A DNA stretch of 44,367 nucleotides from Candidatus Thioglobus autotrophicus (GTDB taxonomy: Bacteria > Pseudomonadota > Gammaproteobacteria > PS1 > Pseudothioglobaceae): assembly GCA_022448455.1 (NCBI GenBank), contig JAKUUR010000013.1, forward strand, positions 1 to 44,367, read 5' to 3'. This document shows positions 5,917 through 44,367 of the stretch, one piece after another; position 1 is the first letter of the stretch; each line of letters begins with the position of its first letter. Under the pieces are notes generated by a model. It had not been told where the DNA came from. It did not search any database and saw only the letters and a program-made list of their open reading frames with translations. The position numbers were made by a program, and so were the translations under genes.

Positions 5917-7986
5917 CTATCTGTTCGTAGTTTCAACCAATATATTGTATCCAGGTAGGGCGTCCAGCAATTGTTTGCCATAGAATTTTGTTCTCAGACG
6001 ATTATCAAAAATTGTAATCTTGCCTGTATCGGTTTCTGTTCTGATAAGTCTACCGCAAGCTTGAATCAGTCTTAATGAAGCATCTGGCAAGGAAATTTCC
6101 ATGAAAGGATTTCGGTTTAAAGATTCAAGGTAGGACTGTGTAGTTTTTTCAATCGGTGAGGTGGGTACACTAAAACGTAATTTTGCAATCATGACATGAT
6201 TTAGATTATCACCCTTAAGGTCAACTCCTTCTGCAAAACTATCTAAGCCAAAGATAACACTACCTTCACCATTCTTGCGTTTTTCAAAGTGCTTTTCAAG
6301 AATACGTTTTTTACTATATTCACCTTGAACCAACAACTCACACTCTATTGTTTTCTCAACTAAGTCAGCTACCATTTGCATTTGACTGTTGGAGGCAAAT
6401 AATACTAGGGTTGCGGCCTCTTTATTTATGCGTTTTTTAAGCTCCCTGGCAAGTTCTTGGGTGTGTTCAAATACCTCAGAAGGGCTTGCTTTAATGTTGG
6501 CAACTATAAAGTCAACTGATTTATAATTAAAAGGTGAAGCCAGGCGTAGATATCGGTTTTCTTTTTCTTTTAAGCCTAACTGTTGATTCATTCTATCGAA
6601 ACTACCAAGTGAAGTAAGGGTGGCAGATGTAAAAATTACACCCGCTGCTTTGGACCATATCAGACTCTGAAGATGATTTGAGACATCAATTTTTGCTGTA
6701 TTGAGGTGATAATTTATTTTCTTATTTGGTAGTTTTGACTTCACAATCCAATTACTGGTAGGAGGGGTGTCAGTATGAGTATTTTGCGTGAAAGCATTTA
6801 AAAGAGAAACGATAGAAGAAAGATTTTGGTCGTTTTGACCTATTATATTATTGAGATTGTCCATTATTATTTGTTTGACGGTATTCCTTTTGCAATAATC
6901 CTGCCAGTTATCTTTCTGATCTAAGAAATTACCAAATGCGGTATTAAAAATACTTAATAAGTTCTTACCTAAATTAGCAACATCACTTGAAACCCCAGAC
7001 ATATCAAATAAATAAACATCATCTAAATACTCAAAATTAGTAATAACTTCAATGAGTTCGCCAATAGCCTCATCTACCTTCTTAATGTGACTCTCAGATG
7101 TCTTTTGATTTGTAATTTTTGAAATCTGATCGATTGCACTCTGAGATTGACGAATTGACGTTTTCATAAATTCAGTACTGGCATTTATTGAAAAGTGAGA
7201 CAGCGCTTTTTGAGCAAAATGATGGGCCTCATCAAAAACGAAAATACAGTCATTTACGTCAGGTAGAATGTTATTTCCATTAATGATGTCAGCCAAAACT
7301 AGATCATGATTGGCAATAATTACGTCGGCTTGAGAAGCTTTTTTTCGTGCTTTAAAAAAAGAACAGTCATTATAAAACTCACAATTTTTGGCAGTACAAG
7401 TAAATCGGTTGCAAGCAACTTTTTGCCAAAGTGAAAATTCTGGCGGACTTTCAAGATCATCAATTTCTCCACTCCAGCGAGTTGAGGAATAGTTATCGGT
7501 CATTTCACTTAGCTTGTTGATTTGGTTTTGGCTTGGCGGTTCGTCCCAAAGTAGGGCGTCTTCAAATAGCGTTTGAGTATTTGAAGTTTCCTCGGTAAGG
7601 TTGATTAAATTTCGAATACAAACATAACGGGATCGACCTTTAGCTAGGGCATATTCAAATTCTACAGAAGAGTATTTTTTTGCTTCAACGATGTCTTTAT
7701 ATAGAATCTGCTCTTGAAGAGCTACATTAGCACATGCAATGATCAGCTTTTTCTTATTAGCTTTGGCAATTGGAAGACAACTAATCAGATAGGCCATTGT
7801 TTTGCCAATGCCAGTGGGGGCTTCAACACAAAGAATTGGGTTCGATTTTGGATATTCGCCAGACAGTGTTTTTGATATCTCAGCAATCATTATATTTTGC
7901 GAAGAACGATTACTAAAATTAGGTAGTTGTATTTTCGCCGCTTCAAATGAGGATCGAATCTGTTTTTTAATTGCTGAAGTTAGCAT
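5917..7986 (-). CDS. dinG: DinG/YoaA-type ATP-dependent DNA helicase (Fe-S, XPD-like)
   Basis: This 689-residue superfamily 2 helicase has Walker A EAPTGIGKT (K62) and a DEAH box (DEAHH at 252-256). Four cysteines, C123, C197, C202 and C208, match the spacing of the 4Fe-4S ligands of E. coli DinG (C120, C194, C199, C205). The C-terminal half has the QACGRLIR motif VI. The family unwinds 5'-to-3' and deals with R-loops and stalled forks. Length is nearer DinG (716) than YoaA (636), but the two paralogues cannot be told apart with certainty here. It starts 9 bp after ispB, so it is cotranscribed with it. Confidence 0.9.
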   Translation of the reverse strand: MLTSAIKKQIRSSFEAAKIQLPNFSNRSSQNIMIAEISKTLSGEYPKSNPILCVEAPTGIGKTMAYLISCLPIAKANKKKLIIACANVALQEQILYKDIVEAKKYSSVEFEYALAKGRSRYVCIRNLINLTEETSNTQTLFEDALLWDEPPSQNQINKLSEMTDNYSSTRWSGEIDDLESPPEFSLWQKVACNRFTCTAKNCEFYNDCSFFKARKKASQADVIIANHDLVLADIINGNNILPDVNDCIFVFDEAHHFAQKALSHFSINASTEFMKTSIRQSQSAIDQISKITNQKTSESHIKKVDEAIGELIEVITNFEYLDDVYLFDMSGVSSDVANLGKNLLSIFNTAFGNFLDQKDNWQDYCKRNTVKQIIMDNLNNIIGQNDQNLSSIVSLLNAFTQNTHTDTPPTSNWIVKSKLPNKKINYHLNTAKIDVSNHLQSLIWSKAAGVIFTSATLTSLGSFDRMNQQLGLKEKENRYLRLASPFNYKSVDFIVANIKASPSEVFEHTQELARELKKRINKEAATLVLFASNSQMQMVADLVEKTIECELLVQGEYSKKRILEKHFEKRKNGEGSVIFGLDSFAEGVDLKGDNLNHVMIAKLRFSVPTSPIEKTTQSYLESLNRNPFMEISLPDASLRLIQACGRLIRTETDTGKITIFDNRLRTKFYGKQLLDALPGYNILVETTNR

Positions 7987-9752: not shown

Positions 9753-12700
9753 ATGGATGCTTTTTTAGACTTTTTAGTACGGCAAAAAAAGTTCGCGGTT
9801 GTTTTTTCCCTTGGTTTCATTGCTGTAGGTATTTTATCTTTTCAACAGATGCAACGAGACCAATTTCCTTCGGTTGATTTCGAAATTCTAGCTGTAACGA
9901 CGGCCTACCCTGGAGCTTCACCTGAAGACGTAGAACAGGGTGTTACCAAAGTTATTGAAAGGGAGCTGTTAAACGTTGGCGGTATAAAAAACATTACTTC
10001 AACTTCTCGAGAAGGCCTTTCCAGTATTATTGTGACTCTTGAGTCAAATGTGAAAGATGTTGTGACAGTCAAGAATGATATTCGTAATGCAGTCAATCGA
10101 GTTGGAAATTTGCCTGAAGAGGTTGTCGATCTTCCAAGCGTTCTTGACTTTAATATCATGGAAATTCCAATTATAAATATCAACATTGATGGTTCCGGTT
10201 TTGATTATGCAGAGGCTAGACAGATCACCGATGATATGGAGAAAGCCCTTTCAATGGTCAAGGGCGTTTCTAGAATTAATAAGAATGGTTATTTAGAGAG
10301 TGAAATACAAATCAAAGTCGACCCTGACAAACTCAGTAAATATAACATTTCAATCAACGAAGTTATAGCTGTTATTTCAAGTCGAAATGCGCGCTTTACT
10401 TTGGGTGACAATAATCAACCAGACCTTAAGAAAAATATCGTTATATTGTCAGAATATGAAAATATAGAAGATATTAAAAATGTTGTAATCATATCGAGCT
10501 TTGATGGCCCTGTTATTAGGCTTAGAGATATTTCTCAAGTTTTCCGAGGAGAAGAAGAAGAAACTTCAATTACCAGAGTTAATGGCACCAAAGGCTTTAT
10601 TTTAGAGATTCTAAAACAAGAACAATCAGACATCATAAGGACGGTTGCAAGGGTTAGGGAAAGGGTATTAGAGTTACAGGAAAATTACCCTGATGATTTG
10701 CGAATTTTTTACACCCAAGACCGCTCAATATCTGTTGAAAACCGATTAGACATTATTGTCAAGAATGGCTATATTGGCTTAACCTTAGTTCTAGTCGTTC
10801 TAGGGATTTTTCTGTCTCTCAAGACGGCCTTCTGGGTAGCTGTCAGTTTACCGGTAACGTTGTTGGGGACGGTTGCTGGATTGGGATTGACAGGTGATAC
10901 CATTAACCTGATTTCACTTTCTGGCTTTATTTTAGTTTTAGGAATCGTTGTTGATGATAGTATTATCATTGCTGAAAGCATACACCACTATAAAAGTCGT
11001 GAAGGTAATCTATACGACAACGTAGTCAAGGGCTTTAAAAGGGTAATTCTGCCCGTTATTACTACCATATTAACCACCATACTAGTCATGTCATCAATGT
11101 TTTTGATGACCGGTATTATGGGAAAGTTTATTTACGTTTTACCGGTTGTGGTTATTTTTGCACTCACCATATCCTTTTTAGAGATTACCTTTGCCTTGCC
11201 AGCCCACCTTGCCAACAAAAAAACTGATAAGCAAAGAACCTGGTTTATCCCAGTAGAAAACTGGTTCAATAAGGTGATAGCAAGATTATTGCGCTGGCGC
11301 TATCTTATTGTTCCATTATTTATTGCTCTTTTTGCCTACTCTATATATTTTGCAATAACCGAGATGCCATTAACTTTATTTCCTTCAAGAGGGGCTGACC
11401 AGATGTATGCGAGAGTTGAAGCTCCTAATGGTAGTTCTGCTGCTTATACCGAGAAACTGGTCATCGAGGTTGAAAAGATCATTATGGAGGAAACAGGTGA
11501 AAACCTTGAATCAGTGACAAGCAATATTGGCAGTTACTTTACGAACGAAGCATACATATCAATAGCACTAACACCGACCAGTGAAAGAGAGATTGGCGCA
11601 GAAGAGATTATGGAAAAAATCAAAGAAAGGTCAGCTGTCATCCAGGGTGCTGAAGAAATTAATTTTTCGGTACAAAGACCAGGACCGCCAGCAGGCGAAG
11701 ATATTGAAATAAATTTGGTGAGTGATAATGATGAACAAAGAATAGCAGCAGCAAACTTTTTGGAAGAAATTTTATCCACTATGGACGGAGTCGACAATAT
11801 TGATCGTGATGATGAGATCGGTAAGCCACGCATTGAAACCGTACTAAATTTTGACGAAATGGCGCGTTTAGGGGTTGAATATCAGCAAGTCTATCGGCAC
11901 TTAAGAACGGCATTTTCGGGTTCCTATGTAACCGATGTCCGTATTGGTGGTAAAGACGAAGACGTAAGGGTTTATATTGGCAACAATGACTATTCTGAAA
12001 ACTTCATAATGAATACCAAGGTAAAGAATCGTCAAGGCAACTTGATACCGATGAGTCAATTCTCAACTATTAGAGAAATTCAAGGCGAACCTGACTTTAA
12101 TCACTATGACGGTGAGCGGTCTGTATCAATATCAGCAAGCGTAGATGACAAGGTAACAACTTCACAAGCTGCAATGGCCTCAGTTCTAAAGGAACTAAAT
12201 GCTGGTGTGAATTTTCCACAAGTAGCAGTAATTAGTGAAGGTGGTGCCCAAGATGTTCTTGAGTCAATGGAGAGCTTCCAAAATGCCTTTATCGTATCCG
12301 TTTTAGGGGTATATCTTATTTTAGCTATGTTGTTTAATTCTTATTCTCAACCATTGCTGGTTTTGGCTGCTGTGCCGTTTGCTTTAATTGGCGTTATTTG
12401 GGCATTTTATTTCCACAAAGAACCCCTAAGCTTCTTTGCTTTAATGGGCTCCTTAGCCTTGATTGGTGTTGTTGTAAATGACTCGTTGGTGATGGTCAGT
12501 CATCTGAACTACATAAAACATAAAAGAGTCCAGATAGAAGACAAAATAACTTGGATTGCAAAGGGAGCTAGGGATCGTCTTAGGGCTGTGGTACTGACTA
12601 CCTTAACTACACTGGCTGGAGTGTTACCACTTGCCTATGGACTTGGAGGTACCGATTACTTTTTGCAACCCATGGTTTTGGCTCTAGGTTATGGTTTGAT

Positions 12701-12815
12701 TTTCGGTACTGTGATGACTTTAATCTTGCTTCCTTGTATGTATTTAATGAATTACGATTTTATCAACTGGTTAGGAGTTATCAAAACAAAATTTTCTAGG
12801 AAGAAAGCTTATTAG
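9753..12815 (+). CDS. RND-family efflux permease (AcrB-like), without adjacent adaptor
   Basis: From ATG 9753 the protein has 1,020 residues, beginning MDAFLDFLVRQKKFAV. A longer frame from 9711 is unlikely because the TATAAT box overlaps that ATG. The two-fold RND layout is clear: TM1, a large periplasmic loop, TM2-7, a second loop, then TM8-12. The proton-relay aspartates appear in TM4 as LGIVVDDSIIIAE, and the C-terminal half has the matching GVVVNDSLVM. SLKTAFWVAVSLPVTLLG is also typical. It is probably a tripartite pump subunit exporting hydrophobic or amphiphilic compounds. Its adaptor and TolC-like gene are not in the window: upstream is the opposite-strand rlmE and downstream the convergent ruvA. 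The substrate is unknown. Confidence 0.92.
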   Translation: MDAFLDFLVRQKKFAVVFSLGFIAVGILSFQQMQRDQFPSVDFEILAVTTAYPGASPEDVEQGVTKVIERELLNVGGIKNITSTSREGLSSIIVTLESNVKDVVTVKNDIRNAVNRVGNLPEEVVDLPSVLDFNIMEIPIININIDGSGFDYAEARQITDDMEKALSMVKGVSRINKNGYLESEIQIKVDPDKLSKYNISINEVIAVISSRNARFTLGDNNQPDLKKNIVILSEYENIEDIKNVVIISSFDGPVIRLRDISQVFRGEEEETSITRVNGTKGFILEILKQEQSDIIRTVARVRERVLELQENYPDDLRIFYTQDRSISVENRLDIIVKNGYIGLTLVLVVLGIFLSLKTAFWVAVSLPVTLLGTVAGLGLTGDTINLISLSGFILVLGIVVDDSIIIAESIHHYKSREGNLYDNVVKGFKRVILPVITTILTTILVMSSMFLMTGIMGKFIYVLPVVVIFALTISFLEITFALPAHLANKKTDKQRTWFIPVENWFNKVIARLLRWRYLIVPLFIALFAYSIYFAITEMPLTLFPSRGADQMYARVEAPNGSSAAYTEKLVIEVEKIIMEETGENLESVTSNIGSYFTNEAYISIALTPTSEREIGAEEIMEKIKERSAVIQGAEEINFSVQRPGPPAGEDIEINLVSDNDEQRIAAANFLEEILSTMDGVDNIDRDDEIGKPRIETVLNFDEMARLGVEYQQVYRHLRTAFSGSYVTDVRIGGKDEDVRVYIGNNDYSENFIMNTKVKNRQGNLIPMSQFSTIREIQGEPDFNHYDGERSVSISASVDDKVTTSQAAMASVLKELNAGVNFPQVAVISEGGAQDVLESMESFQNAFIVSVLGVYLILAMLFNSYSQPLLVLAAVPFALIGVIWAFYFHKEPLSFFALMGSLALIGVVVNDSLVMVSHLNYIKHKRVQIEDKITWIAKGARDRLRAVVLTTLTTLAGVLPLAYGLGGTDYFLQPMVLALGYGLIFGTVMTLILLPCMYLMNYDFINWLGVIKTKFSRKKAY

Positions 12816-12817
12816 TG

Positions 12818-13411
12818 CTATTTGTTTTGTAGTGCTAAGCGAATCAGTTGTTCGGTAGAAAGAGTCTGGTCGTCTATTGATGAAACCATTTTATTAGCCT
12901 CTTTCGTCTTAAATCCGAGAGATTGCAGTGCCGCTAAGGCTTGCTTTGCATTTGGATTGTAACTCGTTTTATGCCCCATTGTTGAAGTTGAAGCGTCAAC
13001 CAATTCCACCTTATCAAGCCTATCTTGAAGTTCAACTATCAGTTTCAGTGCTGTCTTTTTTCCAATCCCAGGTGTTTTTGCCAAAAGATCTGCATCTTCC
13101 CTAATAATACAGTCAACAAGGGAGGATACCGAAAGATGCGACAGTATGGCGAGTGCCACCTTGGGGCCAACACCGTTCACTCTTATTAACTCCCTAAACA
13201 TGCTCTTTTCATCCTTTGAGATAAAGCCAAACAATGTGTGTGAGTCCTCTTTAATGCTTAAATGAGTGTAAAGTAAAGTGTCTTCGGATGAATTATCTAG
13301 TTGGTAGAAGGTGGACATAGGGCAAAGCAGTTCGTAACCAATACCACCAACCTCTAAAAGAATTTCTGGAGGATTCTTGCTAATAATTTGACCTTTTAGT
13401 TGACCAATCAT
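12818..13411 (-). CDS. ruvA: Holliday junction branch-migration protein RuvA
   Basis: The product has 197 residues (E. coli 203). Domain I is the OB-fold beginning MIGQLKGQI. Domain II has two helix-hairpin-helix motifs, [16 protein letters not shown] and [14 protein letters not shown]. The C-terminal ~50 residues form domain III, which contacts RuvB. RuvA tetramers grip the four-way junction and load the RuvB motor. Its ATG overlaps the leuD stop by 4 bp (ATGA), so it is translationally coupled to leucine biosynthesis genes rather than to ruvB or ruvC. It converges on the RND gene with a 2-bp gap. Confidence 0.96.
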
Positions 13412-14022
13412 AACCAGGGATATTTTTTAAAATGCTCTACCTCAAATGAACGGATCTGATCCTCATACTGCAAAGTTAAACCAATATCATCTAGGCCATT
13501 AATAAGTCTGCGTTTTCGCTCAGCATCAACTTCAAAATTATAGATGTTGTCTTCTGTTTTAACACTTTGCTCTTCTAAATTAATAACAATTTCACCTTGA
13601 TATGCAAATAAAGCATCTACAATTTCGCTACTTAAAACAATTGGTAGAATGCCATTCTTAAAGCAATTATTATAGAAAATATCTGCAAAACTGGGCGCAA
13701 TAATAGCGCGAAATCCGAAATCTTCCAACGCCCAGGGAGCATGCTCTCTAGACGACCCACAACCAAAGTTCCTTCTCGTTAAGAGAATTTGAGCACCCTC
13801 ATATTGTGGATCATTTAAAACAAAGTCAGGGTTGATTGGGCGTTTAGAGTTATCCATGCCGACTTCACCATGATCTAGGTAACGCCACTCATCAAACAAG
13901 TTGGGCCCAAAACCGCTACGCTTTATTGACTTTAAAAATTGTTTTGGAATAATCGCATCTGTGTCAATGTTGGCTCGGTCAAGTGGCATAGTGATGGAAG
14001 TCAGAGAGGTAAATCTTCTCAT
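13408..14022 (-). CDS. leuD: 3-isopropylmalate dehydratase small subunit
   Basis: The protein has 204 residues with the LeuD landmarks [17 protein letters not shown], the [13 protein letters not shown] substrate loop and [11 protein letters not shown]. It pairs with LeuC to isomerise 2-isopropylmalate to 3-isopropylmalate in leucine synthesis. It follows leuC after 2 bp and overlaps ruvA by 4 bp. leuA and leuB are not in the window, so the leu genes are split in this genome. Confidence 0.96.
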
Positions 14023-15558: not shown

Positions 15559-17331
15559 ATGTGCGGTATTTGTGGCCAGTTTCGTTTCGACGGAGGAAAC
15601 GTTTCTTCAAAGTCTCTCACTAGTATGATGTCTAAAATTGCTAGAAGAGGTCCAGACTCTAACGGTAAATGGCTTGAGGGTAAGGTTGGTTTCGGCCATC
15701 AACGCTTAAGTATTATTGATTTATCAAGCCATGGCAACCAACCAATGGTGGATGAACTTCTCAAACTAACACTGGTTTTTAATGGAACCATTTATAACTA
15801 TAAATCACTTCGTAGCCAGTTAATCGGCAAAGGTTATTCCTTTTTTTCACATTCTGACACTGAAGTCATTATTAAGGCTTACCATTACTGGGGTGAAGAT
15901 TGTGTCAAGTATTTGGATGGTATGTTTGCCTTCTGTGTGTGGGACAAATCTAATGAAAAGCTGTTTATTGCCCGTGATCGAATAGGCATCAAGCCTCTCT
16001 ACTATAATTTATCCAATAAAGCATTTACTTTTGCTTCCAATTCACAGGCTTTATTAACTCAAGAGCTTGACAAAAGTATTAGCCCTCTCGCCCTGCAGCA
16101 GCAGCTATCACTTCACGGAGTTGTACCAGCTCCAAATACAATTATAAGTGGTATTCGAAAAGTGAAACCGGCAACAGTTATCACAATAAATAAAAAAGGA
16201 TTATTGAAAGAAAAAACCTATTGGCAACCCAGTGCTAGTAGATCTGAAAGAAATCTTTCAGACGAAGACTATGTTGAGAAAGCTCACGAATTATTGACTG
16301 CAGCTGTTACAAAAAGAATGGCTGCGACTGATGTTCCTATTGGAGTTTTGTTGTCTGGTGGCCTAGATTCTTCTCTGCTTGTGGCACTACTTAAAGAAGC
16401 TGGCCATGAAGATATTCGTACCTTTTCTATTGGATTTGAAGATATTGACAATGAAGCTGGGAGTGAGTTTGAGTATTCAGATCAAATCGTTTCAAAGTTT
16501 AAAACCCAGCATCAAAAATATGTTGTTAGCAATGCAGAGGTATTGCCTAGGTTGTCAGAAGCAGTAATGAATATGGCCGAGCCAATGGTAGGTCAAGATG
16601 CCGTCGCTTTTTATTTGCTTTCTGAACAGGTGTCAAAGCATATCAAGGTAGTTTTGTCTGGTCAAGGTGCAGATGAAGCTTTTGCTGGTTATTTTTGGTA
16701 TCCAAGAATGGCAGCTGAGAGGGGTGATGAGGTCGAAAGATTTTCCAAACACTATGTTGACAGGTCTCACGAAGAGTATTTGCAAGCAGTAATGCCAACT
16801 TACCAATGTGAAAACCATACTTACAAATGGCTAAACAAAGAGTTTGCAAAAACGGGTGCTGATTCATTTATTGATAAAGTTTTTCGTACTGATATCACTA
16901 AGTTAATTGTCGATGATCCAGTCAAACGAGTAGATAACATGACAATGGCTTGGGGACTTGAAGCACGTGTACCTTTTTTGGATACTGAGCTGGTTGAGTG
17001 GGCGTTAAAGATGCCAGCAAACTTAAAGATGAAAGAAGAAGGCAAGTATCCACTCAAGAAAATCGCAAGAAAACTTCTTCCCAGTTCAGTAATTGATCGA
17101 AAAAAAGGTTATTTTCCGATGCCAGCTCTGAAGTATGTTCAGGGGGAATTTTTAGAATTTATGTCTGATATACTTACATCAAGTGCTTGCCTTAATCGAG
17201 GAGTATTTGATCAAAATTATGTCAACAAAGTTATTAATTCACCTAGAGACTACATGACTGCTTTAAATGGCTCTAGACTTTGGCATTTGGCATTATTTGA
17301 GTTTTGGATGCAAATTAATGTAGATAGGTAA
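15559..17331 (+). CDS. asparagine-synthetase-family amidotransferase, NAGGN-type
   Basis: The protein has 590 residues. The N-terminal Ntn glutaminase domain starts MCGICG, so Cys2 is the nucleophile, with [15 protein letters not shown] and NGTIYNY. The synthetase domain has the PP-loop SGGLDSS at 266-272. Several stretches, [47 protein letters not shown] and [12 protein letters not shown], resemble what I remember of the N-acetylglutaminylglutamine (NAGGN) amidotransferase branch (osmolyte synthesis) more than of housekeeping AsnB. The partner GNAT-type synthase gene, often adjacent in NAGGN loci, is absent; rnhA follows after 5 bp. It may simply be the cell's asparagine synthetase. The family is certain, the substrate is not. 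Confidence 0.88.
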
Positions 17332-41371: not shown

Positions 41372-41480
41372 GGAGTATCTTGTCCATTGTTTCATACAAA
41401 TTGCCAGCACTAACTGAAAATATTATGCTGTTTAGGAAAAAAGCTATATAAGATATGAATGTAGTCTAATAATAAAAATT

Positions 41481-42245
41481 TTATCTTCGTACAAATGCCT
41501 TTTCTACTACAAATTCTCCAGGTGTTTTTGAATTACCTTGTTGCATTCCTATTGATTCGAAATATTCTATTAAATCTGTATTAAGTCCAGTCGATCCACA
41601 TACCATAAATCTATCTAATTTAGGATCAATGCTTTCATTTCCAATTTCTGAAGTTAGTTTTTTATTTTTAATCCAATTTGTAATTCTACCTTCACGTGGC
41701 CATTGTGCTTTGCTCAGTGTATTAAAGTATATAAATCTACCCTGAGTTACTTTTTCCCATTTGACGTTAAATGACTCTAAATCTGATTTGTAAGCAAGTT
41801 CTTCTGGGTATTGAACTGTATGGGTTAATACAACTTTGTCAAAACGTTCATAAGTTTTAGGGTCTTTTATAATACTCATAAAAGGTGCCAAGCCTGTACC
41901 TGTAGAAATAAGATATAAATTGCGTCCTGGCAGAAGGTCATCAATAATTAAAGTGCCTGTCGATTTATCTCTTACAAGTATTTCATCACCAACTTTTATT
42001 TTTTGTAATTTAGAAGTTAGGAGCCCATCTTTAAGTTTAATGGATAAAAACTCTAAATGATCTTCATAATTTGCTGATACAAATGAATAGGCCCTCATGA
42101 GTTTTTTACCTTCATGCTCTATGCCAATCATTGCGAATTCACCATTATTAAATTCATTTAAAAACTTACGGGTAGTTTTAAATGAAAATGTCTTATCAGA
42201 CCAATGATGAATATCAGTAACTTGTTCTATATTTATTGACGTCAT
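41481..42245 (-). CDS. fpr: ferredoxin/flavodoxin-NADP+ reductase
   Basis: The 254-residue protein matches the short bacterial Fpr class: FAD-binding RAYSFVSA at 51-58, NADP-binding STGTGLAPFMSI near 114-125, VCGSTGL, and a C-terminal GEFVVEKAFV tail. It moves electrons between NADPH and ferredoxin or flavodoxin. Possible users in this window include IspG, and more generally Fe-S and stress repair. It is flanked on one side by an empty 175-bp gap and on the other by the terminator of the nucleotidase gene, so it is probably monocistronic. Confidence 0.94.
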   Translation of the reverse strand: MTSINIEQVTDIHHWSDKTFSFKTTRKFLNEFNNGEFAMIGIEHEGKKLMRAYSFVSANYEDHLEFLSIKLKDGLLTSKLQKIKVGDEILVRDKSTGTLIIDDLLPGRNLYLISTGTGLAPFMSIIKDPKTYERFDKVVLTHTVQYPEELAYKSDLESFNVKWEKVTQGRFIYFNTLSKAQWPREGRITNWIKNKKLTSEIGNESIDPKLDRFMVCGSTGLNTDLIEYFESIGMQQGNSKTPGEFVVEKAFVRR

Positions 42246-42311
42246 TTATTTCATTTCGACACGAAGATTGTCAGCATAATACAGAAGCATTGAGCTGTTT
42301 GTTAGAAATAA

Positions 42312-42348
42312 TCAAAGAAAAGTAAGGGCTGACAAATGCCAGCCCTTA
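42312..42348 (-). terminator. rho-independent terminator of the nucleotidase gene
   Basis: TAAGGGCTG (42323-42331) and CAGCCCTTA (42340-42348) form a perfect 9-bp stem with an 8-nt loop. On the minus strand it is followed by CTTTTCTTT. It lies 22 bp after the nucleotidase stop codon. Confidence 0.85.
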
Positions 42349-42370
42349 AATGCTTTAATTTAAGCTTTTA

Positions 42371-44011
42371 TTATTCCTGAGTAATTCGGTTATCGGTGTA
42401 ACCAGAATATCCTGGATTTGCTTTAATATAGTTCGCAACAACATCCGCTAAATCTGGACCAAAGTCATAGATTTCAGATGCAGATCTGAATATTTTGTAT
42501 CCATCTCCACCTCCACGAATAAAGTTATTAGAAACCATACCATACGTTTTATTTAAGTCTAAAGGTTTCCAAGAGCCATCTTCATCAATTTCAATTGAAG
42601 TTACTCTTCCTTCATTGGCAGGTTTGGCTAGATCAAACGTATATCGCATTCCGGAAACTTGAGGAAACCGTCCCGCAACATCTTCAACCTGGCTGACACC
42701 ATTTTCAATCGCTGTAAGAAGCTGCTCACCGGTCACCTTGAAAGTTGACAAAGTGTTTTGAAACGGAAGTATCGTCATGATTTCACCGAGCGTGACCTCA
42801 CCCGAATCAAGTGAAGCACGGATTCCACCTGAGTTCTGTAATGCAATAGTATAGCCTTTGTCAATAACGGCATCTCTCATTGCATCTGCTATCATGTTGC
42901 CCATGTCACACTCTTGAACACGACAAACTGCCCTATCGCCTGTTAGTGAGTTAGAGACAGTTCCAACAATAGTCTCTTTAAGTTCATTGATTGGCTTTTC
43001 TAGTTCATCCAAACGAGCAACTACTTGGCTGTTTTCATTGACCGAACCATCGAGTGTGATTGGTTCACCTGTTGCATAGACGACATTACCCGCTTCATCA
43101 AAGATAACTGAAAGTTCGCCTAAGAATTTACCATACGCATATGCCTGAACGATCTGTGTCCCATTTACCACCGTTGGGTAAGGGCCTTTTGCCCTATCGC
43201 TAATGTTTGATAAATAGGTATTATCATGTCCACCAACAATAACATCTACGCCCGTAGTATTTGCTGCAATCATTTTGTCTATGGCGTATGACGAGTGCGA
43301 CAGAAGTATGATTTTATTTACTCCAGCTTCGGTCAAAAAATCTACCTCAGACTGCACAGCAGCAACAACGTCGGAAAATATAATGTTATCACCCGGACTA
43401 GATATATCTACTACATCCTCAGTAACAACGCCTATCAGTCCAATTTTTTGGTTGTTTTTTAACAAGGTCGTTGATTTATGTAATTTACCTTTAAGCTCTG
43501 GCTCCATATCTACGTTAGCATTTGCCATAAGAACAGGGAAAGTTACTGTATCCATAAATGCTCTAAGAGTTTCAGGCCCATCATCAAACTCATGATTACC
43601 AACTGCCATTCCATCATATTCGAGCTTATTCATCATTTCTGCGGCAACTTTTCCTTTGTATAGATTATAGAAAAGCGTTCCTTGAAATTGATCACCACCG
43701 TCCAAAAGTATCGTATTAGAATGCCTTGTTCGAGCGTCTTCAATTGCTGTAATCAAACGCGCTGTACCACCAAAACACTTTCCCTTAGCATTATTCTCCG
43801 CAGAACAATTATTATCGTATTTACTGATTGGTCTAAAACGAGCGTGAAAATCATTAGTATGAAGTATTGTTATTTCGTAGACTTTATCATGAGCGGCTAT
43901 TGAAGACTGACTAAATAACCCAAATGAAAGAACACAACTCAGAAGTATAGCCACATGAATTGGGACTATTTTTTGCAAACTTAGCGATTGCATTTTATTA
44001 ATTTGTTTCAA
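42371..44011 (-). CDS. exported 5'-nucleotidase (UshA-like)
   Basis: The 546-residue protein has a signal peptide (hydrophobic VAILLSCVLSFGLF, likely cut near SIAA-HDK). The N-terminal metallophosphatase domain has ILHTNDFHARF, DGGDQFQGT, GNHEFDDG, LLSHSSYAIDK and VGGHDNTYL. The C-terminal substrate domain contains NSGGIRASLDSGEVTLGE and NNFIRGGGDGYKIF. It should hydrolyse nucleotides in the periplasm, supplying phosphate and nucleosides. The start is TTG at 44011, set by AAGGAGAG 5 nt upstream; the ATG at 43993 lies too far from that site. It is followed by a strong terminator. Confidence 0.92.
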   Translation of the reverse strand: MKQINKMQSLSLQKIVPIHVAILLSCVLSFGLFSQSSIAAHDKVYEITILHTNDFHARFRPISKYDNNCSAENNAKGKCFGGTARLITAIEDARTRHSNTILLDGGDQFQGTLFYNLYKGKVAAEMMNKLEYDGMAVGNHEFDDGPETLRAFMDTVTFPVLMANANVDMEPELKGKLHKSTTLLKNNQKIGLIGVVTEDVVDISSPGDNIIFSDVVAAVQSEVDFLTEAGVNKIILLSHSSYAIDKMIAANTTGVDVIVGGHDNTYLSNISDRAKGPYPTVVNGTQIVQAYAYGKFLGELSVIFDEAGNVVYATGEPITLDGSVNENSQVVARLDELEKPINELKETIVGTVSNSLTGDRAVCRVQECDMGNMIADAMRDAVIDKGYTIALQNSGGIRASLDSGEVTLGEIMTILPFQNTLSTFKVTGEQLLTAIENGVSQVEDVAGRFPQVSGMRYTFDLAKPANEGRVTSIEIDEDGSWKPLDLNKTYGMVSNNFIRGGGDGYKIFRSASEIYDFGPDLADVVANYIKANPGYSGYTDNRITQE

Positions 44012-44178
44012 AATTACTCTCCTTTATAATTTAAAAAAAATTAAACTAAGAATATAGTTTAGATTTAATTATAAACCTGTTTTCTTATTAAAATATTACT
44101 AGTTATAAATTCTAGTATTTAACTAAAAAAAATTATCAATGTTTTTAAAAGGTTTATTATCTTAGCCGAAACAAGCAT

Positions 44179-44216
44179 AAAAAAAAGCCTTATTTTAGAC
44201 ACCATTGAAAAATAAG
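44179..44216 (-). terminator. terminator downstream of the tRNA-His segment
   Basis: On the minus strand CTTATTTT (44216-44209) pairs with AAAATAAG (44196-44189), then GC and a run of eight T's (44186-44179). It is 25 bp beyond the encoded CCA end, which suggests that the tRNA region is, or was, transcribed from upstream. Confidence 0.7.
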
Positions 44217-44240
44217 AAGGACTTAGTAGTAAGGGACTGG

Positions 44241-44303
44241 TGGGGCGAGAAACGGGGCTCGAACCCGCGACAACCGGAATCACAATCCGGGGCTCTACCA
44301 GCT
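44241..44303 (-). tRNA. tRNA-His (GTG), 3' portion; 5' side missing or interrupted
   Basis: On the minus strand the sequence runs from an intact D loop (AGCTGGTA) and D-stem GAGC through an anticodon arm CCGGA-TTGTGAT-TCCGG with anticodon GTG (44283-44281). Variable loop TTGTC, T arm GCGGG-TTCGAGC-CCCGT, acceptor strand TTCTCGC, discriminator C and an encoded CCA (ending 44241) follow. C73 is the tRNA-His discriminator. The expected 5' strand (GCGAGAA, TA, GCTC) is not found. Instead a hairpin array abuts the D loop at 44304. A degraded candidate 5' part, GTGGGATAGCC, lies at 44356-44346; it pairs with the acceptor at 6 of 7 positions (two wobbles). This may be an interrupted gene, a pseudogene, or an integration remnant. 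Confidence 0.75.
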
Positions 44304-44356
44304 GTTAACTTCGTTAACACCCTTGTTCACTCCGTGAAAAGGGTGGGCTATCCCAC
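44304..44356. repeat. stacked hairpins next to the tRNA-His D loop
   Basis: Three hairpins are packed in 53 bp. A: GTTAAC-TTC-GTTAAC (44304-44318). B: CACCCTT, bulged G, TTCAC-TCC-GTGAA, AAGGGTG (44318-44345), a 12-bp stem. C: GTGGG-CTAT-CCCAC (44343-44356). The cores of A and B are the same 13-mer with a paired A-T to C-G change, a compensatory substitution. B and C share 44343-44345 and so partly exclude each other. Confidence 0.8.
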
Positions 44357-44367
44357 TATAGCAACTA

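Follow-up and report, generated by a model that had tools for sequence, protein, structure and literature searches.

What has become of the tRNA-His gene at the end of this DNA? The window is the whole stretch analysed, 44,367 nucleotides. Since the contig stops at position 44367, it is a complete contig (C5) of a draft genome of 1.7 Mb in 70 contigs. The sequence-only reading described its last bases as a tRNA-His gene, perfect from D loop to CCA, that is interrupted in the D arm by a hairpin cassette. It left four options: an inserted palindromic element, a tRNA processed in an unusual way, a 3′ copy left by integration, or an assembly-end artefact. The features that bear on the question are as follows.

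44241–44304, minus strand: tRNA-His(GTG) from its D loop through CCA, the displaced 3′ portion of the gene, very probably the core of an attR (98% identity over 64 nt to the uninterrupted tRNA-His of relatives)
44281–44283, minus strand: anticodon of the tRNA-His fragment
44304–44318, minus strand: hairpin 2, GTTAAC-GAA-GTTAAC, adjoining the core; element end (from folding; borders by eye)
44318–44345, minus strand: hairpin 1, 28 nt, loop GGA; element end (from folding; borders by eye)
44346–44367, minus strand: leader of the element end, cut at the contig end (89% identity over 76 nt, hairpins included, to the element end in genome G022)
42371–44011, minus strand: 5′-nucleotidase-like gene (PF02872, PF00149), chromosomal side of the attR

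When the minus strand from 44304 to 44241 is aligned with the uninterrupted genes of relatives, the single mismatch lies in the D loop; the span from D loop to CCA is therefore as first described, but the match is not perfect. Two hairpins, which make up the 41-bp stretch 44305–44345, do sit where the 5′ half of the tRNA is expected. The suggestion that the flanks of this stretch join to a nearly normal 5′ half does not hold: GTGGGATAGCC can form four of the seven acceptor pairs, two of them G-U (by eye), and more plausibly belongs to the end of a mobile element. ARAGORN reports no tRNA anywhere in the window, and the Rfam model RF00005 scores the fragment at 25.5 bits, below the cut-off of 29, in an alignment that skips the D arm and places D-loop bases in the position of the acceptor strand. 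Neither program thus yields a cloverleaf with a paired acceptor stem. The 72 nt on the 5′ side of the anticodon arm fold with a z-score of −2.15 against dinucleotide shuffles, a modest value on its own. The hairpins are nevertheless real sequence, because the last 127 bases of the window, hairpins included, recur at 94% identity in G022, one of the 29 genomes of the genus sample (the window's own among them).

In G022 (L065), a stretch of 6.9 kb holds an intact tRNA-His (13778–13853), an integrase ORF of 347 amino acids (12676–13719) that opens 58 bases after the tRNA, other genes, and then the hairpin-bearing copy (6939–7065); the direct repeat at the two ends is 117 bp long and 94% identical. 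Since G022 combines an intact tRNA, an integrase and the same hairpin-bearing far-end copy, we conclude with high confidence that the window copy is the attR of a tRNA-His-targeting integrative element of SUP05-type bacteria, a group of marine sulfur oxidisers. Interruption of a gene is the wrong reading, because an intact tRNA-His accompanies such copies in relatives, and alarm over a broken essential tRNA gene is false. The pairs of intact gene and fragment in relatives support the option of a 3′ copy left by integration. An assembly-end artefact is discounted by the occurrence of the hairpin end inside contigs, in G022 (contig C9) and, in a similar arrangement at tRNA-Lys, in the single-contig genome G028. 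A displaced tRNA fragment in an attR is, as a kind of finding, ordinary.

That hairpins occupy part of the D arm beside a near-perfect 3′ part could also reflect a mobile palindromic repeat inserted into the gene, and repeats of such a kind are known from Rickettsia. The distribution of the sequence makes this highly improbable. A 141-base query from the far end in G022, lying mostly outside the tRNA, gave seven matches at six sites in the 29 genomes, all of them tRNA-His copies, and no copies of leader plus hairpins were found at unrelated sites in these genomes at E ≤ 0.01. We therefore regard the leader and hairpins as element-end sequence and reject a dispersed palindromic element of the G022 type. 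Two further observations argue against such a repeat: the shared sequence extends well upstream of the tRNA, and intact tRNA-His genes adjoin in relatives.

The wider search covered 58 genomes (the window's own included) and returned a match in 50. Within the genus sample, an uninterrupted tRNA-His was read in 18 of 29 genomes; it adjoins tRNA-Arg(TCT) in 17, and in G023 a partial second copy of tRNA-Arg intervenes. Six genomes (G004, G006, G015, G022, G024 and G028) carry a further tRNA-His copy in the same orientation, 2.3–6.8 kb downstream on the same contig. The downstream copy in G028 is 83% identical; that in G006 is full length and so looks like a tandem duplication. A tyrosine integrase lies between intact gene and fragment in G022 and G015, and a truncated one in G004. 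The layout in G015 is that of G022 with a far end of a different class and an end repeat of 89 bp at 92% identity. Besides the window's own genome, ten of the 29 gave no uninterrupted tRNA-His at E ≤ 1e-6, five of which are listed as at least 90% complete; this weighs against the attR reading. Four of the ten were inspected (G019, G005, G026 and G012): two (G019 and G005) have contigs that stop at tRNA-Arg or inside it, and G026 has other sequence after tRNA-Arg. As a separate observation, the tRNA-Arg(TCT) directly upstream of tRNA-His seems also to serve as an integration target (L369 in G026, contig C72; L124 in G023, contig C40). In G021 (L073, 2555–10387), inverted tRNA-His copies flank a block of chromosome, with a NadA reading frame that is seemingly fused (by eye); this arrangement looks like an inversion or a single-cell amplification chimera.

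A count of tRNA-His genes in the window's own genome, proposed as a check on the first reading, did turn up a further copy, which is itself hairpin-bearing; the one other candidate was judged not to belong to the host. The hairpin-bearing copy lies on contig C19 (2162–2231), has its hairpin stretch in the equivalent place and is without one base of the anticodon stem. The other, on contig C22 (16407–16481), was rejected as the host gene. C22 carries tRNA-Pro and tRNA-Arg neighbours and leaves the pattern of the relatives inside tRNA-Arg; its tail of about 320 bases (16392–16716; L084) holds tRNA-His, tRNA-Lys(CTT) and the start of a tRNA-Leu, none with an encoded CCA. Along C22 the G+C fraction runs at 0.33–0.44 and then stands at 0.57 in the tail. 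Beyond the first 62 nt of tRNA-Arg, no whole counterpart occurs in the other 28 genus genomes; the remaining matches to the tail are to Arg-His genes (to position 141, at 75–79%) or to single tRNAs (1–62, 1–74 and 253–334). Because of the rise in G+C, the lack of encoded CCA and the lack of a counterpart, we treat the tail as a chimeric contig end. This is a judgement; the tail looks like an assembly chimera that annotation would call the host's tRNA-His.

No native intact tRNA-His was thus found in the assembly, and the simplest account is an assembly gap in which the native gene would be unassembled. The same absence might be taken to favour a working tRNA-His whose unusual insert is removed or tolerated in processing, as might the D-stem-like GCTC...GAGC that the C19 copy retains around its insert (by eye). 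We consider a working tRNA most improbable: acceptor pairing is mostly lost, ARAGORN and Rfam reject the sequence, the C19 copy is short of an anticodon-stem base, and G022 holds a like copy together with an intact gene, which also tells against the earlier option of a tRNA processed in an unusual way. The own assembly contains no integrase of the G022-type family at E ≤ 1e-20, so the element itself is not seen there. More generally, tRNA-His may appear to be absent from such drafts where repeated att cores break the assembly.

The attR reading implies the following course of events. A tyrosine integrase would recombine the attP of the element with the tRNA-His gene; the element would re-supply the 3′ part of the tRNA at its near end, leaving the gene intact, in this case outside the present contig, and the original 3′ part would be displaced to the far end of the element, where it would form the sequence seen in the window. 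The hairpins would then be the last 60-odd bases of the element, with no insertion into a gene, and the body of the element presumably lies, or once lay, beyond 44367 in the window's own genome.

The chromosomal side of the attR suggests a longer history. The region 41479–43923 of the window is syntenic with sequence beside the tRNA-His of G027, where that gene lies about 1.3 kb from the 5′-nucleotidase gene with another ORF between them. In G017, tRNA-His is close to the equivalent of window position 41376, so 41480–44240 may represent cargo accreted earlier. In G015, between the 5′-nucleotidase gene and that genome's own attR, the decayed remnant of a tRNA-His 3′ end can be made out (by eye); no older att trace was found in the window between 41340 and 41480. 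The locus looks like a hot spot with layered insertions.

The G022 integrase is one of a family whose integration targets in SUP05-type bacteria include tRNA-His, tRNA-Lys and further tRNA genes. It matches PF00589 (4e-32) and a PHROG integrase (2.4e-65). An alignment of eight integrases served as the query against GTDB genomes, from which the best 80 of 137 relatives were taken and 31 examined. Those relatives that carry names put the genus in SUP05/Candidatus Thioglobus, and the integrase of G022 is matched at 100%. Among these 31, relatives at least 57% identical adjoin, wherever a tRNA was identified, tRNA-His, -Lys, -Pro, -Asn or -Phe, and the more distant integrases lie mostly beside tRNA-Lys, with one beside tRNA-Arg. 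In G006, a 57% identical relative lies beside tRNA-Arg. Viral contigs yielded no close integrase, the best among the best 80 of 136 being 32% identical; they also gave no exact match to the tRNA-His stretch and one exact match to the tRNA-Lys stretch, which is a complete tRNA. Among plasmid and phage records, the best integrase matches are at 42% (a 4.9-Mb Aeromonas record) and about 28%. The G022 element also encodes a protein of 414 amino acids (L065, 8088–9332) that matches PHROG 4756, of unknown function, at 1.6e-29. In G004 (L131, 9755–17463), an integrase of the same family lies beside tRNA-Pro in the opposite relative orientation, with two full-length tRNA-Pro at the ends. An att-like copy in G095 (L336, about 410–590), in which an outward TATAAT and arm-like repeats accompany a tRNA-His that is nearly complete, suggests that certain elements may end in an entire tRNA gene.

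In order to judge what the hairpins may do, the far ends can be compared across copies. Upstream of the hairpins, a sigma70-like −10 site faces outward at a near-constant distance from the core within each class. In type-1 His copies it lies at −111 to −114 in six of the seven scored, and the seventh, with a duplication of 21 nt, has it at −135; it lies at −99 or −100 in five of the seven other His copies, and at −96 or −97 in three Lys copies, the best score in G025 being elsewhere. By hand count, 23 of 28 copies score higher in the forward than in the reverse direction (p = 0.0009, from copies that are not independent), and 12 of the 28 sites reach p ≤ 0.05 against shuffles. At the other end of the elements, arm-site-like repeats adjoin the start of the integrase, and three Lys elements have a terminator-like hairpin and T run between CCA and integrase (both by eye).

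The hairpins themselves are shared unevenly. Hairpins also stand 5′ of the anticodon arm in three tRNA-Lys attRs (G028, G025 and G023), and the pair is absent from 11 of 14 Lys copies (by eye). Between the window and G022, hairpin 1 shows a compensatory change (CACCC/GGGTG against CATCC/GGATG), and the homologue of hairpin 2 in G022 (GTGAAC-GAA-GTGAAC) fails to fold by itself. Across five type-1 copies, two of 15 pairs are changed on both sides and 92% of cells are paired, a score that 17 of 500 shuffles reach; covariation support for the stems is thin. Many loops are either GNRA or GNA with a closing C-G pair. This bias was sought after the loops had been seen, and the background (two C-GNA-G among 736 three-base-loop hairpins in 505 kb) includes the att copies, so it is a hint at most. 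An uninterrupted stem of at least eight pairs, one G-U allowed, occurs in four of 29 copies. Mean fold z-scores are −1.3 over 15 His copies and −1.4 over 14 Lys copies, several being near zero; Lys copies without the hairpin pair reach −3.2, and z-scores track hairpins poorly. A universal hairpin rule for att copies is not supported.

In a circularised element, the outward promoter would be aimed across hairpins and core at the integrase. The role for the hairpins that we rank first, and hold tentatively, is as part of a structured leader through which the excised circle would express its integrase, as the orientation of the promoter-like site suggests. Ranked next, and itself doubtful, is a role of the hairpins as DNA, in which the attR assignment stands and they would bind protein or form cruciforms within the attP arm, between the integrase arm sites and the core, and play no part in RNA. 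Consistent with this are the arm-site-like direct repeats beside int in attL, the similar motifs upstream of several attR copies, and a spacing from motif to core of about 70 nt that a hairpin copy shares with L336, where the 5′ half of the tRNA is nearly complete (by eye). Against it, the hairpin sequence varies by class while the fold persists in several, GNA and GNRA loops would also suit RNA, and the promoter-like site upstream faces outward; all of these observations are still compatible with a DNA role. Absence of any function ranks third. It is also conceivable, though improbable, that the far ends encode a transcribed tRNA-like RNA made up of outward promoter, leader, two hairpins, host anticodon arm, T arm and CCA, with the hairpins taking the place of acceptor and D arms. 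Such an RNA would be a structured leader or tRNA mimic controlling integrase expression or tRNA processing, with separate origins for tRNA-His and tRNA-Lys targets. Should the hairpin-plus-promoter end work as proposed for the leader, it would offer a testable case of integrase switch-on after excision in small marine elements.

The displaced-fragment attR is of a known kind. The signature of tRNA-gene islands in the Islander paper (PMC4383910) comprises an intact tRNA, a displaced 3′ fragment in the same orientation and a nearby tyrosine integrase, and the SUP05 elements share the intact gene, the displaced fragment and an integrase near the gene. As in those islands, the crossover in the SUP05 elements would lie near the anticodon, judging from where the repeat starts. 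In contrast to them, the SUP05 fragment is preceded by a hairpin pair in several element classes; the word 'hairpin' is absent from the text of that paper. Among the listed literature titles and openings of abstracts, no description of SUP05 tRNA elements with hairpin ends was found; neither the family nor its hairpin-bearing end was found described there. Tycheposons, as described in PMC10872708, resemble the SUP05 elements in occurring in marine bacteria, with a tRNA border, a tyrosine recombinase and cargo genes. The closest parallel for the far end comes from the work on ICEKp1 (PMC13023037), where a far-end promoter was shown experimentally to drive int across attP after circularisation; its integrase leader contains stem-loops, and termination is relieved by a 15-bp sequence at the far end. 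ICEKp1 differs in being an ICE at tRNA-Asn in Klebsiella. Its stem-loops lie in the 5′-UTR of int, whereas the SUP05 hairpins lie on the other side of the core, and the SUP05 arrangement is read from sequence. Both have int directly downstream of the tRNA in the same direction, stem-loops in the leader (for the SUP05 elements a proposed one), and at the far end a promoter, or in the SUP05 elements a promoter-like site, that faces across attP into int.
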